DNA of 32,180 bases from a virus. This document shows positions 13,682 through 26,752 of the stretch, piece after piece. A program made the translations under genes and the position numbers. The DNA lies in IMG/VR virus record IMGVR_UViG_3300038760_000042, positions 1 through 32,180 of that record. The stretch is one strand, 5' to 3'. Below the pieces are notes generated by a model. The model ran no database searches. It saw only the letters and a list, made by a program, of their open reading frames with translations, and was not told the DNA's origin. Position 1 is the first letter of the stretch. Each line of letters starts with the position of its first letter.

Positions 13682-13924
13682 CTAATCAATCATACTTTTC
13701 AACTTCTCTTCTGATTTGCAAACCTCACTTTTCAAAACTTCAATACTATATTCACAACCTTCTGCAAATTGTATTGCTCTTTTTAATCCGTGGATTGCTT
13801 CGTACTCCTCAAACATAAGAAACTCCTCTTCCAACTCTTCAATATATAATTTCTCCTCCTCCATAAACAATTCCAACGCTGCAATATACGAAACTTCAGA
13901 CCTAATATCAAACTGATTTACCAT
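13682..13924 (-). CDS. Small acidic helical protein
   Basis: 80 aa, Glu-rich (EEEKLYIEELEEEFLMFEEYE around residues 22-43), predicted mostly helical. It overlaps the end of the nuclease-like gene by 17 bp and is the last gene before the terminator, so it belongs to the sigma-factor transcription unit. No family is recognised. Confidence 0.55.
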   Translation of the reverse strand: MVNQFDIRSEVSYIAALELFMEEEKLYIEELEEEFLMFEEYEAIHGLKRAIQFAEGCEYSIEVLKSEVCKSEEKLKSMID

Positions 13925-14528
13925 ATTTAGTTGTTAACAATTCAACTGATTCTTTTATTAATTCGTGGGTATCTTTATCATAGTACAAATAGTAAGGAGT
14001 AACTCCTGTTTTTTGCTTATACTTTTCGTGCTTCTTTGCGTTCGATACCTTAGATTGTTGCAAACCTACATTGTATGGATTTTTAGACAAATACGTGTGC
14101 GGTTTAACCTGAATAGCCGTGTAATCATTAAACAGGTCAACTGAAAAACTAACATCCGTATCTTCATCTGTATAATCTAAATGCAAATCATATTTATCAG
14201 CTAAAAGTTTTTTAATATTATCCTCGGCTAAGGCGCCAAAAAAAGTATCCAACACAATTCGCTTATAAATATATTTTCTTACATCTTCAATATCAACTCC
14301 GAAATCCTCAACAATTCCTTCTAATATTTTATACAACTTAGCCTCTCCAAGACGCTCGTATATATATATCCCAAACCCCTCATAGTTTGGTTTTATAGCT
14401 GTTTTAAAATACTGCTTAACGTGCTCTGATACTCTACCTACACTACGAACAGTCAAACGCCTTCCTGCTGCTCTATTAATTAAATTAAACTTATGTTTGC
14501 TTAGTTGATGAATTGGTTTGATATCCAT
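13908..14528 (-). CDS. PD-(D/E)XK nuclease candidate, MjaI-like
   Basis: 206 aa. The centre holds SVDLFNDYTAIQVKPHTYL, in which Asp131 and Gln140-x-Lys142 fit the metal-binding and catalytic part of a PD-(D/E)XK nuclease with Gln in the (D/E) place. The IQVKPHTY block resembles the SIKPETY-type core of MjaI-family restriction endonucleases. Its start overlaps the upstream stop (TAATG). Because it lies with the sigma factor rather than the methyltransferases, it may serve host-DNA degradation or packaging rather than restriction. The assignment is tentative. Confidence 0.45.
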   Translation of the reverse strand: MDIKPIHQLSKHKFNLINRAAGRRLTVRSVGRVSEHVKQYFKTAIKPNYEGFGIYIYERLGEAKLYKILEGIVEDFGVDIEDVRKYIYKRIVLDTFFGALAEDNIKKLLADKYDLHLDYTDEDTDVSFSVDLFNDYTAIQVKPHTYLSKNPYNVGLQQSKVSNAKKHEKYKQKTGVTPYYLYYDKDTHELIKESVELLTTKYGKSV

Positions 14529-19771: not shown

Positions 19772-20500
19772 TTAACAAATATCTACTCTTTTACAGGCGA
19801 CGTCATAGTATTTAGGGTCTTGCTCTATCATTATATAATTTCGGTTTAGATTTTTTGCCCCAAGTCCAGTAGTTCCGCTACCACAAGTATTATCAAGTAT
19901 TAAATCTCCTTCATTACTGTAAGTTTTTATTAAATACTCAATTAATTCTAATGGCTTTTGTGTTGGGTGAATTATTCCGTGTTGGCTATTTACCACATTT
20001 ACCTTTTGCACACTTCTTGGGTATCGTGTTGTTTGCCCTCCGCTTATTATCTGCTCAAACTTCCCGTAATTTGTAGTTTCTTTTAATCTTCGCCCACTTG
20101 TATTACTTGGTTTGTGTCCTGTTGTTTTTTGTGGATTGTAGGTTGGTAGCTTCTTATAAAATACCAAGATATTTTCGTGGGCTTTCATTGGCATTTTTTT
20201 TGCGTTTAGGTGTCCGCTTGCTCTGTCTTTTTCCCAAATCCACTCGTATTTAAGTAACTTCAAATTACTTGCACCAAGCACCTTATCAAATGGCGTTTGA
20301 GCAAACAACAATATTGCACCATTATCTTTAATTACCCTTTCATATTCGCTCCACAACCTATCCAAATCGATAACACTATCCCATTTATTACGAGTGGTTC
20401 CATAAGGCAAATCGCAAAAAATCATATCAATACTTTTATCTTCTACGTGTTTAGGCATTAACTCTAAACAATCCCCTAAATATATTTCGTTTATCTTCAT
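19772..20500 (-). CDS. DNA methyltransferase, beta-class (array unit 6)
   Basis: 242 aa amino-methyltransferase. Motif IV is CDLPYG (29-34), and the SAM-binding motif I is DNTCGSGTTG (about 203-212), giving the IV-then-I order of beta-class N6-adenine or N4-cytosine enzymes. HPTQKPLELIEYLI precedes motif I, as in this family. It probably modifies phage DNA against host restriction. It is the last member of the hairpin-separated array and directly precedes the early promoter; no related hairpin was found after its stop. Confidence 0.85.
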   Translation of the reverse strand: MKINEIYLGDCLELMPKHVEDKSIDMIFCDLPYGTTRNKWDSVIDLDRLWSEYERVIKDNGAILLFAQTPFDKVLGASNLKLLKYEWIWEKDRASGHLNAKKMPMKAHENILVFYKKLPTYNPQKTTGHKPSNTSGRRLKETTNYGKFEQIISGGQTTRYPRSVQKVNVVNSQHGIIHPTQKPLELIEYLIKTYSNEGDLILDNTCGSGTTGLGAKNLNRNYIMIEQDPKYYDVACKRVDIC

Positions 20501-20527
20501 ATTTTATTCTTTTAATTCCGTAAAGCA

Positions 20528-20578
20528 GGTAACAACGTGTAAAGTGCATTAAAACGCACCTTATACAAACCGTTATAA
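20528..20578. repeat. attC-like hairpin A
   Basis: Plus strand: GGTAACAACGTGTA, inner GTGC/GCAC stem around CATTAAAACG, then TATACAAACCGTTATA. It is an imperfect inverted repeat with AAC and GTT cores and unpaired bases. It lies after the 217-aa methyltransferase stop and before the 242-aa methyltransferase start. Confidence 0.65.
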
Positions 20579-20582
20579 ACAA

Positions 20583-21236
20583 TTATTTTTTTGCCACCAA
20601 ACCTGTACGCTCACTCATAATCTCACAATATTTCGCATCTATATCGTACATTATAGAATCAAACCCTAAATCTTCTGCAACCTTTCCAGTTGTTCCACTT
20701 CCGCCAAAAGGGTCAATAATTAAATCGCCTTCATTTGCAGTTGTTCTAATAATCTTGTTAATTATTTCTTCGGGTATTTGGCAAGGGTGTTCTGTTTTTT
20801 CCTTGCTTACATTCTTAACTTGGTTTACATTCCACCAATCATAAAGTTTTGCACCTGTTTTTCCTTCTGCAATTCGTTTTATAATTCGTTTGTCTTTTAG
20901 GTTTTTATAAGGTTGTCTTACTTTTCTAAAATCAGGCTTACAACCCCACCAACTTATAATTCTGCTTTGCTTTCCTGTATTGCTATTATAAACCCAACAC
21001 ACAACTTGCTCACATTTTTCTTTAATCGCTTTAGGTAGCAAGTTAATAGTTTCTTCAGGGTAATGTATAATCACGCAAGGAGTAGGTATTTTAGAAAGAA
21101 GTTCAATATAATCTTCTTCATTCATTCTATCCTTGTATTGGTTATATGCGTAACCTTGATTATACGGTGGGTCTGTAATAGTCAAACCTTTTGGTATTTC
21201 ACAATCTCTAAAATCTTTGTTTATTATTTGTATCAT
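20583..21236 (-). CDS. DNA methyltransferase, beta-class (array unit 5)
   Basis: 217 aa. Motif IV is TDPPYNQGY (21-29) and motif I is DPFGGSGTTG (about 175-184), so it is another IV-then-I enzyme. It shares the methyltransferase fold but little sequence with its neighbours, so it is not a tandem duplicate. Short flanking inverted repeats (GTTA..., AAC..., TTATTTTTTT elements) bracket the gene. The likely role is self-protection of phage DNA. Target specificity cannot be read from sequence. Confidence 0.85.
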   Translation of the reverse strand: MIQIINKDFRDCEIPKGLTITDPPYNQGYAYNQYKDRMNEEDYIELLSKIPTPCVIIHYPEETINLLPKAIKEKCEQVVCWVYNSNTGKQSRIISWWGCKPDFRKVRQPYKNLKDKRIIKRIAEGKTGAKLYDWWNVNQVKNVSKEKTEHPCQIPEEIINKIIRTTANEGDLIIDPFGGSGTTGKVAEDLGFDSIMYDIDAKYCEIMSERTGLVAKK

Positions 21237-21285
21237 ATATTTTAATTTTTCAAATTAATTTTGCCAACGCTCTAAAAAAATAACA

Positions 21286-21347
21286 GTTACTAACAACGTG
21301 TATATTGCATAGCCTATCGGCATACGCACCATACACAATGCGTTACC
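21286..21347. repeat. attC-like hairpin B
   Basis: Plus strand: TAACAACGTGTATATTGCAT at 21291, a short loop, then ATACACAATGCGTTACC. It is an imperfect inverted repeat with bulges, and its outer AAC/GTT cores match hairpins A and C. Confidence 0.7.
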
Positions 21348-21369
21348 TGCAATAATTGTAAAAACCGCC
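21342..21369. repeat. Dam cassette terminal inverted repeat, 3' copy
   Basis: 28 bp starting GTTACCTGCAATAATTG and ending AAAAACCGCC. It is the reverse complement of 22113-22140 with 26 of 28 matches. Confidence 0.85.
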
Positions 21370-21371
21370 AC

Positions 21372-22076
21372 TCACTCATACATGAAAAGTTTTTCGGAAT
21401 TTATTTTATTTACTTTAGAATTTTTAGATATAGGTGTTTTTAATTCTTTTTCCCAAATACACTTAAAATCTCCTGGAGCATTATACTCAGAAATAAATAC
21501 TTTATGTCCTTCTTTTGCTTTATTTCTACACCATTGCCAAAAATCTAAATGGTTAAAATCGTCTTTGTAACCAGTTGTGTTTTCGTAAGGTGGGTCGCAA
21601 TAAATTAAACTGTTTTCAGGTATTTCTAAATCTTGGTAATTACTATGAATAAATTTAATACCTTTTATTTCTTTTTGTGTCTTTAAAGCGTTTCTATATC
21701 CCTCGCCAATTCTATCCCTGCCTTTACAAACTTTATCATTTACATTGCCAACAAAACCTCTTCCCCAAGTAGCACCAAAAGTAAAAAGTATTTCTATATA
21801 AGCTACTATGTGTTTTTCATATTTATCTGGGTTTTTTCTTACATCATTAAATAAATCTTTAGTAACATCTTTTATAGGTTTCCAACCTTTCTGCAACTCT
21901 TTTAATAAAGATATTAAGTATTCGTTGCTGTCAGCACCAATTCTATCACCTTTTACTTTATTTATAATATTACAACCACCTACAAAAGGCTCAACCCAAG
22001 TTTTATTGTTTCTGTGTTTAAGCATTAATGGTAATATTTCTTTTGCTATTCTATTTTTACTTCCTAAATATTTCAT
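21372..22076 (-). CDS. Dam-type N6-adenine DNA methyltransferase (array unit 4)
   Basis: About 234 aa from ATG 22076. This start places the family's N-terminal motif first (MKYLGSKNRIAKEI); an upstream extension would translate through the repeat sequence. Motif I is WVEPFVGGCN and motif IV is IYCDPPYENT, in the I-then-IV order of the alpha-class (D12/Dam). The gene is bracketed by near-perfect 28-bp inverted repeats and by hairpins B and C, the clearest mobile-cassette outline in the array. Confidence 0.85.
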   Translation of the reverse strand: MKYLGSKNRIAKEILPLMLKHRNNKTWVEPFVGGCNIINKVKGDRIGADSNEYLISLLKELQKGWKPIKDVTKDLFNDVRKNPDKYEKHIVAYIEILFTFGATWGRGFVGNVNDKVCKGRDRIGEGYRNALKTQKEIKGIKFIHSNYQDLEIPENSLIYCDPPYENTTGYKDDFNHLDFWQWCRNKAKEGHKVFISEYNAPGDFKCIWEKELKTPISKNSKVNKINSEKLFMYE

Positions 22077-22112
22077 ATTGTTTCGTGTTATTTGCCTTCC
22101 TAACGTCAGGCA

Positions 22113-22140
22113 GGCGGTTTTTACAATTACTACAGGTAAC
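22113..22140. repeat. Dam cassette terminal inverted repeat, 5' copy
   Basis: 28 bp starting GGCGGTTTTTACAATTACT and ending GGTAAC, the inverted partner of 21342-21369 with two mismatches. Confidence 0.85.
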
Positions 22141-22268
22141 AACGTATATAAAAAATTGTTAAGGAACATTATTTTTATTAGTTAAAGTCTTTATTTACAA
22201 TGGTTTATGTTTGTTAACGAACATTCACGCTTATTTAAGGAACAACTTTTCATATACAATTCGTTACC
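22135..22268. repeat. attC-like hairpin C (long form)
   Basis: The outer arms GGTAACAACGTATATAAAAA (22135-22154) and ACTTTTCATATACAATTCGT onward to TTACC (ending 22268) pair with bulges. The ~70-bp interior holds a 15-bp direct repeat, TTGTTAA(G/C)GAACATT, at 22156 and 22211. The total length of ~134 bp suggests a second, degenerate unit inside. Confidence 0.7.
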
Positions 22269-22273
22269 AACAA

Positions 22274-22909
22274 TTAAAAAAGGGTCAGTTGCTTTTTATA
22301 TTGGTTCAGTCTATTGCTTGCTTTTTGAAAGTACTCGCTATCAATTTCAAGTCCTACTAAATCAAACTTTAAGTCATAACAAGCTAACGCAATGCTTCCA
22401 CTTCCTAAATGTGTGTCAATTATTTTGTTTCCACTTTCGGCATAATTCATAAGTAGCCATTCATATAATGCTTTCGGTTTTTGTGTTGGGTGTATTTTAC
22501 CATTTGTATCTTCCCAATTAGAAGCACTTCCACACCAATGTTGTTTTCTAATCCTCATAGGCTTGTTAAAAGAAGTCCAAGCCATTTCACCATCAGCAAA
22601 ATCGCTTTCACCGTTGTTTTTATCCCATACAACCCAACACTTAGATGGTTTTAGTTCAAAATAATTGCCACCCCAAACAATTTGATTTTTAGATATTCTT
22701 TTAAGTTCATCAAAATATTCTTTATTAGGTGTGTTTTTATCCCAATCTTTTTTAGTCCATTTCTTTTTAGCATTATTACCCATTTGCATATTCCCTGCAT
22801 CAATTCCGTAAGGTGGGTCAACGATAGCCAAATCAAATTGTTTATCCTCGCATTGCTTCATATACAGCAAGCAATCTGTGTTCAGTAATTCTATATTAGG
22901 TTCTGTCAT
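22274..22909 (-). CDS. DNA methyltransferase, beta-class with clamp-binding-like tail (array unit 3)
   Basis: 211 aa. Motif IV is DPPYGID (31-37). HPTQKPKALYEWLL and the motif I region DTHLGSGSIALA lie in the C-terminal third, giving IV-then-I order. The protein ends QLTLF, close to the bacterial sliding-clamp-binding pentapeptide QL(S/D)LF, so it may ride the host beta clamp at replication forks. Both ends carry GTTACCAAC-type inverted repeats (22263-22282 and 22916-22935, about 17 of 20). Confidence 0.85.
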   Translation of the reverse strand: MTEPNIELLNTDCLLYMKQCEDKQFDLAIVDPPYGIDAGNMQMGNNAKKKWTKKDWDKNTPNKEYFDELKRISKNQIVWGGNYFELKPSKCWVVWDKNNGESDFADGEMAWTSFNKPMRIRKQHWCGSASNWEDTNGKIHPTQKPKALYEWLLMNYAESGNKIIDTHLGSGSIALACYDLKFDLVGLEIDSEYFQKASNRLNQYKKQLTLF

Positions 22910-22929
22910 AATTCATTTTTTTAAAAGTT

Positions 22930-22980
22930 GGTAACAATGTATAAAAAACATTAAAACGATTTTTTATACTATACGTTGTA
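22930..22980. repeat. attC-like hairpin D
   Basis: Plus strand: GGTAACAATGTATAAAAAA, loop CATTAAAACG, TTTTTTATAC, then TATACGTTGT. A strong 10-bp inner stem is flanked by AAC/GTT cores. The loop is identical to the loop of hairpin A, although the stems differ. Confidence 0.7.
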
Positions 22981-22986
22981 GTGCAT

Positions 22987-23214
22987 TTAAAAAATTGATT
23001 TAGCACGCTTTTTTACATTGTCTATGTATTGTTGTTTCTTATTGCATTTTTTCTTTAGTTTATTATACTTAGCTTCAATTTTCCTATATTCTTCGTGCCA
23101 ATGGCTTCTTTTTCTATCAGCGTCTAAATACTTTTGGTTTATCTCACTACTTTCTATCTTAGCCTCTAAGGCTTTTACTTGTCTTTTAAGGTTTTTAATT
23201 ATTTCGTCTTTCAT
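22987..23214 (-). CDS. Small coiled-coil protein (array unit 2)
   Basis: 75 aa from ATG 23214 (a GTG at 23229 lies inside the flanking repeat and is less likely). It is highly charged and helical, starting MKDEIIKNLKRQVKALEAKI, with leucine heptads indicating a coiled coil. It is bracketed by GTTGT(G/A)GTGC(G/A)TTT inverted repeats and by hairpins D and E. No family is recognised; it may be a passenger gene of the cassette. Confidence 0.5.
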   Translation of the reverse strand: MKDEIIKNLKRQVKALEAKIESSEINQKYLDADRKRSHWHEEYRKIEAKYNKLKKKCNKKQQYIDNVKKRAKSIF

Positions 23215-23227
23215 AAAAAAACGCACC

Positions 23228-23354
23228 ACAACAATATATAAAAATAATAGCCTGTTGTAGTGTCTTATTAGTGGCTATTACTCACTTATTAATTATTTAT
23301 TTAACTCAAATTTTGTGCTTGTTTACGGCTACTATTCTTATACTATCTCGTTGT
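23228..23354. repeat. attC-like hairpin E (long form)
   Basis: The outer arms ACAACAATATATAAAAATAA (from 23228) and GGCTACTATTCTTATACTAT plus CTCGTTGT (ending 23354) pair over about 26 positions with few mismatches. Inside, CACTACAACA near 23250 can also pair with TGTTGTGGTG at the edge, so two nested or adjacent sites may be fused here. The stretch 23230-23398 holds no gene. Confidence 0.65.
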
Positions 23355-23398
23355 AAACAATTAAAAAAGACATACAACACAGAATATAAATAATAAAA

Positions 23399-23587
23399 TT
23401 ACTTACGTTCTGCTACTAATTCCTCAATTTTAGCTCTACACTTTTTTAGTTTTTCCTCTAAAGACTCAAACATTGGTATATCACAATAAGGGTTTGCCAT
23501 CATTTCTAAAATTGATTTCTCAATTCTTTTAAAGTCTAATACTGTTTTCGGTGGTTCTATTATCATAATCGTAATTTTACTATTCAT
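23399..23587 (-). CDS. Small unknown protein (array unit 1)
   Basis: 62 aa, MNSKITIMIIEPPKTVLDFK..., with a short hydrophobic N-terminal strand and a charged helical C terminus containing two Cys. Upstream, a CTACAACA (23603-23610) resembles the arm cores of the array hairpins and may mark the array's outer edge. Hairpin E follows the gene. Function unknown. Confidence 0.45.
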   Translation of the reverse strand: MNSKITIMIIEPPKTVLDFKRIEKSILEMMANPYCDIPMFESLEEKLKKCRAKIEELVAERK

Positions 23588-23622
23588 ATTCTAATTCGTT
23601 AACTACAACAAGCTACATTTCA

Positions 23623-23889
23623 TCAATTTCTTTCTACTTCTACACAAACTACATTTCTAACTTCTTTGTTTAGTGCTTTTTTAATAATTTCTTCTAAGTC
23701 TTTAGGTGTGTAGTTAATCCAATGTGATACGATTTCTACTTTGTAAACTGCCGCCATAATTTTTTTGTTTTTGTTTTGTCTATTATACCCCTTACTCTCT
23801 TTTATCTTTGCCTCTAAATACGCTTTCCATTGTGATTGGAATTTTGTCTTCCTTTTTTCCGGCACGTATGCTGATTGTATGCAAATCAT
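23623..23889 (-). CDS. Small unknown protein, 88 aa
   Basis: ATG 23889 is 4 bp after the previous stop, in a TAATATTATG context like other early starts. An internal ATG at 23757 follows an A-rich AACAAAAACAAA leader and would give a 44-aa protein, MAAVYKVEIVSHWINYTPKD..., which by itself looks like a compact phage protein. The first 44 residues may therefore be a separate short product or an N-terminal extension. No function is recognised. Confidence 0.45.
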   Translation of the reverse strand: MICIQSAYVPEKRKTKFQSQWKAYLEAKIKESKGYNRQNKNKKIMAAVYKVEIVSHWINYTPKDLEEIIKKALNKEVRNVVCVEVERN

Positions 23890-26389: not shown

Positions 26390-26752
26390 TTAATGCTTAA
26401 AATGCTTATTATTTTTATTCAAAGCAAACTTAACATCCAATTTTCCCATAACGTCTTTTTCCATCGTTAATAGTAATTTTCTAAACGCTCCCTCAAACTT
26501 TTTTCCCTTTAATTTAGTTTCTCCTCTTGTTTTAGTTTTTGATAATAATTCAACTATTTCAAAAGTCCATTCACTTGGATCCGTGTCGTTCCATAAGCGC
26601 ATAAAAGCTGTCGAACTGTGGTTATTTAGTTTAAAATTACTGTAATGAGATTGCCACCGACTAAACACGTCAACACTCATTCCTATGTAATAGTATCCCG
26701 AATTATGCGTAATCTTATAAATTCCGCTTAACTTTATTTTATAATATGCCAT
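26390..26752 (-). CDS. GIY-YIG nuclease-domain protein
   Basis: 120 aa. GIYKITHNSGYYYIGMS (10-26) contains the GIY and YIG elements, followed by FSRWQSH with the expected Arg. The remaining ~80 residues, with a basic GKKFEGAFRKLL helix, have no recognised DNA-binding module. It may be a free-standing homing-type or DNA-processing endonuclease. It is the last gene of the lysis unit and overlaps the spanin gene by 14 bp. Confidence 0.8.
   Translation of the reverse strand: MAYYKIKLSGIYKITHNSGYYYIGMSVDVFSRWQSHYSNFKLNNHSSTAFMRLWNDTDPSEWTFEIVELLSKTKTRGETKLKGKKFEGAFRKLLLTMEKDVMGKLDVKFALNKNNKHFKH

Follow-up and report, generated by a model that had tools for sequence, protein, structure and literature searches.

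The tailed phage of Flavobacteriia represented by the virus record IMGVR_UViG_3300038760_000042 (32,180 bases, analysed at full length and hereafter called the window) very probably has five integron-type cassettes arrayed without an integrase, with a cargo that is probably anti-restriction and that is most likely mobilised in trans by an enzyme of the host. Each cassette would be a single attC-type hairpin with one gene behind it, and the exchange point would lie in the AA|C core at the 5' side of the hairpin (G|TT on the other strand). With less assurance, we favour a wider picture, in which the Bacteroidota hold an overlooked and widespread integron lineage whose recombinase lacks the IntI-specific domain, while phages keep a separate pool of cassettes with the same attC family, inverted polarity and mainly counter-restriction genes, moved by the host enzyme.

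Genes and hairpins of the array

The tailed-phage genes of the window encode a terminase, a portal, tail proteins, a RecE/YqaJ exonuclease and a peptidase M15. On the minus strand, the stretch from 23609 to 19772 comprises four methyltransferase genes, preceded by a gene of 62 aa and a coiled-coil gene of 80 aa, with five hairpins, A to E, interspersed. The first-pass annotation had described six genes of one orientation and five related hairpins at this place. This is confirmed, and the five hairpins were recovered both by a motif scan and by a covariance model made from host sites only (R2). Its gene calls agree with Pfam, which assigns three of the array genes to N6_N4_Mtase and one to D12 (Dam-type); no Pfam family was found for the 80-aa coiled-coil gene or the 62-aa gene. 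The features are as follows.

23623..23889, minus strand: 88-aa gene flanking the array, common to the related phage contig IMGVR 3300038491_000032 (97% over 225 nt)
23399..23587, minus strand: 62-aa gene upstream of the array, with no preceding hairpin; in the related phage contig L239, another short gene takes this position behind a flank of 97% identity
22976..23350, minus strand: cassette 1, hairpin A (23231-23353) and the 80-aa coiled-coil gene (ORF 22987-23229); R2 45.1 bits; own-end pairing
22264..22975, minus strand: cassette 2, hairpin B (22934-22978) and an N6_N4 methyltransferase (22274-22909); R2 36.2 bits; PF01555, E 9e-16; 14 of 17 own-end positions paired
21343..22263, minus strand: cassette 3, hairpin C (22139-22266) and the Dam/D12 methyltransferase (ATG 22079, stop 21372); R2 41.1 bits; PF02086, E 4e-17
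20573..21342, minus strand: cassette 4, hairpin D (21293-21345) and an N6_N4 methyltransferase (20583-21236); R2 35.9 bits; PF01555, E 9e-29
19772..20572, minus strand: cassette 5, hairpin E (20532-20575) and an N6_N4 methyltransferase (19772-20500); R2 37.0 bits; PF01555, E 5e-33

The 62-aa gene, with no hairpin before it, probably belongs to the phage backbone and is probably not a cassette. The last methyltransferase is a cassette gene, with its hairpin upstream. The 3' R'' end of cassette 5 is missing in the window and is retained as GCAGGTAAC in contigs L189 and L246. No relatives of the 80-aa coiled-coil gene were found in viral contigs. With five sites in 2.8 kb, the locus can be classed as a CALIN (at least two attC within 4 kb, integrase gene absent). 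The absence of an integrase had been noted earlier, and no tyrosine recombinase was found among the ORFs scanned in the record; a host enzyme acting in trans is therefore the most likely agent. Elsewhere in the window, an MjaI-type restriction endonuclease domain (PF09568, E 7.6e-14) is present near the terminase gene at 13908-14528 (minus strand), and a weak GIY-YIG endonuclease domain (E 1e-4) at 26390-26752 (minus strand).

The hairpin family and the pairing of cassette ends

The hairpins share the motif AACG N3-5 GTATA ... TATAC(A/G)TT GTT. A strict regular expression for this motif found five sites over the 32 kb, all in the array and all on one strand, and R2 scored the five hairpins at 36-45 bits, with the next best match at 10 bits. 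The host alignment behind R2 was made with a phage-built model (R1), so the two models are not fully independent, while their sequences are; a MAFFT alignment that mixed short and long sites (A2) was left out of the models since its 5' arms were misplaced. The columns AACG and TTGT are invariant and the L stem covaries. The 20 phage sites have 38 compensatory cells and the 40 host sites 82, counts reached in 0 of 500 shuffles for each set. Plain minimum free energies on the coding strand are weakly better than those of shuffled sequences (z -0.6 to -1.9), so the case for the hairpins is made by covariation and homology across genomes and not by folding energy. Where attC has extrahelical bases on the L'' arm of the bottom strand, the predicted folds have bulges and mismatches in a pattern that is not constant. 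The sites have the structure of attC, namely an imperfect inverted repeat, AAC/GTT cores, an unpaired spacer between the R and L stems, and a variable loop. The attC heptamers RYYYAAC/GTTRRRY are absent, as the first-pass annotation had said of their outer bases: the cassettes of the window start with GTTGTGG, GTTACCA, GTTACCT, GTTAGTA and GTTACCT. The five hairpins are attC-type sites.

The same motif is found in the Polaribacter phages P12002L and P12002S, Tenacibaculum phage JQ, Cellulophaga phage phi13:2 and many IMG/VR contigs. When the strict pattern was run against 257 Gb of prokaryote genomes, it gave 88 stretches, nearly all from Bacteroidota by their titles. The few other titles, L418 (Sphingopyxis MAG), L400 (Trichodesmium bin), L452 (Lysobacterales MAG) and L398 (Proteobacteria MAG), may reflect either binning error or transfer.

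The segments between hairpins start with GTT and finish with AAC, and each segment has ends that are complementary to one another. Of the 720 possible assignments of ends to starts in the window, the true one gives the best pairing. Over all collected arrays (27 phage and 19 host segments), own ends pair better than permuted ends (0 of 2000 permutations); the two sides of one hairpin do not pair above background. Pairing of own ends that is absent across the hairpin is expected of cassettes that are former circles. In the circular form, the start of a cassette (GTTACC...) would pair with its end (...GGTAAC) and complete the R box. The array follows the integron rule that the R box is complete solely in the circular cassette, and extended self-pairing has been described in most cassettes (Bouvier et al. 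2009, PMC2727003). The Dam-type cassette 3 has a terminal inverted repeat of 28 nt and 93% identity (21342-21369 and 22113-22140). A second long end-to-end inverted repeat of a segment lies at 23381-23402 and 23571-23592; such end repeats reach 22-28 nt, well past the length of an R box.

Stems placed between genes of one direction could also be transcription terminators or RNA processing sites of a methyltransferase operon. This is very improbable, for a T run after the stem is not part of the conserved motif, the AAC...GTT cores are conserved, own ends pair, no Rfam match was found for the hairpins, and host and phage genes lie in opposite orientations at the same sites. The homology of the hairpins across genomes, which the earlier annotation had set against ordinary terminators, is present.

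Cassette unit and reshuffling in related phages

Among phage site pairs that share flanks, 112 share the downstream flank, 9 the upstream flank and 1 both. Since sharing of the downstream flank dominates, the unit is a hairpin with its downstream gene; the five hairpins therefore make five cassettes, and the last methyltransferase has no hairpin after it. The earlier unit, a gene with its downstream hairpin, was our first assumption and was dropped after tests of polarity and of the flanks. A hairpin and its gene can become separated, because hairpins are less conserved than the genes behind them (23% of pairs sharing the downstream flank have hairpins of at least 0.8 identity, against 8% in the background) and because, in contig L025, an 89% identical methyltransferase gene lies behind a different hairpin.

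Comparison of related phages, which the first-pass annotation had proposed as a check for a fixed order of genes and hairpins, revealed an order that is not fixed. The portal region of IMGVR 3300038491_000032 is 71% identical to that of the window phage and its left flank 97%; beyond this shared flank lies another short gene, and an E-type hairpin and the fifth methyltransferase come immediately after it. Hairpin E and the methyltransferase of cassette 5 are found behind a different gene in L239, and this methyltransferase lies behind other genes in L246 and L189, the latter with a D-type hairpin. A copy of cassette 4 with 89% identity in L025/L089 stops at 20572. Where upstream genes are related between contigs, their similarity stops within 1 nt of the AAC core in 7 of the 12 pairs of contigs; four of these 7 involve one and the same window cassette. 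No exact empty integration site was found. The same genes with other neighbours in related phages are the result of cassette shuffling.

How this shuffling proceeds at present can be read in a second way, in which the hairpins are of attC origin and phage recombinases now act on these short similar sequences by homologous recombination or single-strand annealing. In its favour, the phage has a gene for a YqaJ/RecE-type exonuclease, near-identical hairpin types recur and could anneal, and some genes stand behind different hairpins. We consider this reading possible and rather unlikely, as breakpoints in several pairs lie no more than 1 nt from the AAC core, sites hardly ever have both flanks in common, and the cassettes keep an own-end complementarity that annealing does not need. 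Under the preferred reading, the host enzyme would gain, lose and shuffle cassettes in trans during infection, and homologous recombination may help in their exchange. We infer both the catalysis by the host recombinase and its timing.

Host arrays, gene polarity and cargo

New covariance models and the genome search place the hairpins near a tyrosine recombinase in Bacteroidota, as the first-pass annotation had suggested looking for. Host genomes bearing the sites have a recombinase with strong similarity to IntI, and the larger host fragments are arrays, as with the ten same-strand sites of Gaetbulibacter sp. 4G1. In the first set of host loci with both an array and a recombinase, the array lies 3' of the recombinase on the opposite strand. 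A match to the recombinase at E<=1e-60 is present in 106 of 199 Flavobacteriaceae genomes. Sites were found in 20 of the 20 genomes checked that have the recombinase; among the best-scoring matches listed, the nearest site is within 10 kb of it in 12 of these genomes, always 3' of the gene and with the model strand opposite to it. Fourteen of 20 genomes with no match at this cut-off still have sites, so more distant versions of the recombinase probably exist; one such genome has more than 40 sites in 66 kb (G069:C14:147272-213568). Large same-strand arrays in Flavobacteriaceae chromosomes include L505, L503, L499 and this stretch of G069, beside the domain-less recombinase where one was located. 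Several recombinase genes lie at contig starts, as if the arrays broke the assemblies.

The catalytic residues R-K-H-R-H-Y of the host recombinase are all invariant in an alignment with IntI1. The additional domain that is specific to IntI, near patch III, is absent; about 40 residues are missing including this domain, and the gap between the matched parts is 69 residues in IntI4 versus 26 in the host recombinase, with two gaps relative to IntI1. The N-terminus is extended by about 90 aa. The TIGR02249 score is below cut-off, and the best NCBIfam family is NF040815 (XerA/integron integrase), with 212-221 bits against a cut-off of 220. Known XerA has a role in chromosome resolution; the host enzyme differs by its adjoining cassette arrays. 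Should this recombinase prove active in spite of the missing domain, the accepted view of what attC recombination requires will need revision. No close relatives of it adjoining attC were found in viral contigs; in one viral contig, L546, a 34% relative occurs together with sites.

We propose that the sites are a Bacteroidota attC family, which hosts would use in chromosomal arrays beside an IntI/XerA-like recombinase that lacks the IntI-specific domain. These arrays resemble bacterial integrons in their hairpin sites with AAC/GTT cores, their same-strand arrangement and cassette ends that are complementary in the circle. They differ from the attC and IntI of bacterial integrons in the core heptamers and in the missing domain and, unlike in the bacterial integron, the recombinase gene has the orientation of the cassettes, and the array lies 3' of it. 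Short palindromes dispersed over many genomes could also have been spread by a hairpin-targeting transposon family (IS200/IS605 or REP-type) or a miniature inverted-repeat element. We give this little credence, because the sites are asymmetric, occur about once per gene and form same-strand arrays adjoining a tyrosine recombinase, and because the variable part is the gene between sites. The earlier suggestion of a distinct system that came from the host, or that the host mobilises, stands in outline.

Gene direction relative to the sites differs between hosts and phages. In phages, 258 of 274 flanking genes run along the model strand, while at host loci 148 of 181 are opposite to it (45 of 47 beside the recombinase). 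A G after the AAC of R' marks the bottom strand of attC (Bouvier 2009, PMC2727003). In the hairpins, AAC is followed by an invariant G on one strand only, which is the phage coding strand, as for an attC bottom strand; the phage genes are therefore encoded on the bottom strand. Relative to attC, gene polarity is canonical in hosts and inverted in phages. The earlier description of an integron-like array is upheld by the own-end pairing, the reshuffling in phages and the host arrays beside a recombinase; its unit of a gene and downstream hairpin does not hold, given the inverted polarity. One relative orientation would be selected if, as we guess, phages have both a fixed strand that folds during replication and a fixed direction of transcription. 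The inverted polarity is a marker that separates phage from host cassettes and can be used for tracing.

The 110 phage cassette genes have domain matches to N6_N4_Mtase (24), MT-A70 (9), D12 (7), Mom (6) and C5 methylase (3). DNA-modification domain matches number 49 in these genes versus 1 in 100 controls taken from the same contigs, or about 45% of the phage pool versus 1% of controls, where the figures are domain counts in which small overlaps are possible. No DNA methyltransferase is among the 25 commonest families of 105 host cassette genes, and no phage cassette protein matched a host cassette protein at 1e-4. Phages thus seem to trade anti-restriction genes within a pool of their own, apart from the sampled host pool. 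The methyltransferase cargo has probably been selected because it would protect phage DNA from host restriction, a benefit that we infer.

Integrase-less attC arrays with methyltransferases have been reported in phages, including Polaribacter phage P12002L (Qi et al. 2023, PMC9892861), so a phage array of this kind has a precedent and is not new in principle. P12002L has two methyltransferases, and its P12002L_attC2 is active with IntI1 (PMC9892861). The window likewise has attC-type sites and methyltransferase cassettes in a flavobacterial phage, and its Dam-type cassette has 74% DNA identity to a P12002L cassette over 21291-22150; the window array is a larger relative of the P12002L array. 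P12002L was published with two attC of divergent directions, whereas our model places four sites there, all on one strand, and the genes have an inverted orientation with respect to attC. Beyond this precedent are the Flavobacteriaceae arrays with a domain-less recombinase and the inverted polarity, neither of which was found in the open-access literature searched, and a phage pool that is rich in DNA modification and has no proteins detectably in common with the sampled host pool. No Flavobacteriales integrons were found in that literature, an absence that is not proof, and Salinibacter ruber was the only named Bacteroidetes genome with a complete integron in a 2022 survey of complete genomes (PMC9024848). 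Isolated reports of phage attC sites thereby become a testable system, in which methyltransferases would be traded as cassettes with a host-carried recombinase, and the same sites expose Flavobacteriaceae cassette arrays with tens of sites. In the fetched stretches, the model matches about 6-8 sites each in P12002S, JQ and phi13:2; with P12002L included (L004, L005, L006 and L008), the cultured phages have about 4-8 sites each, more than published for P12002L.
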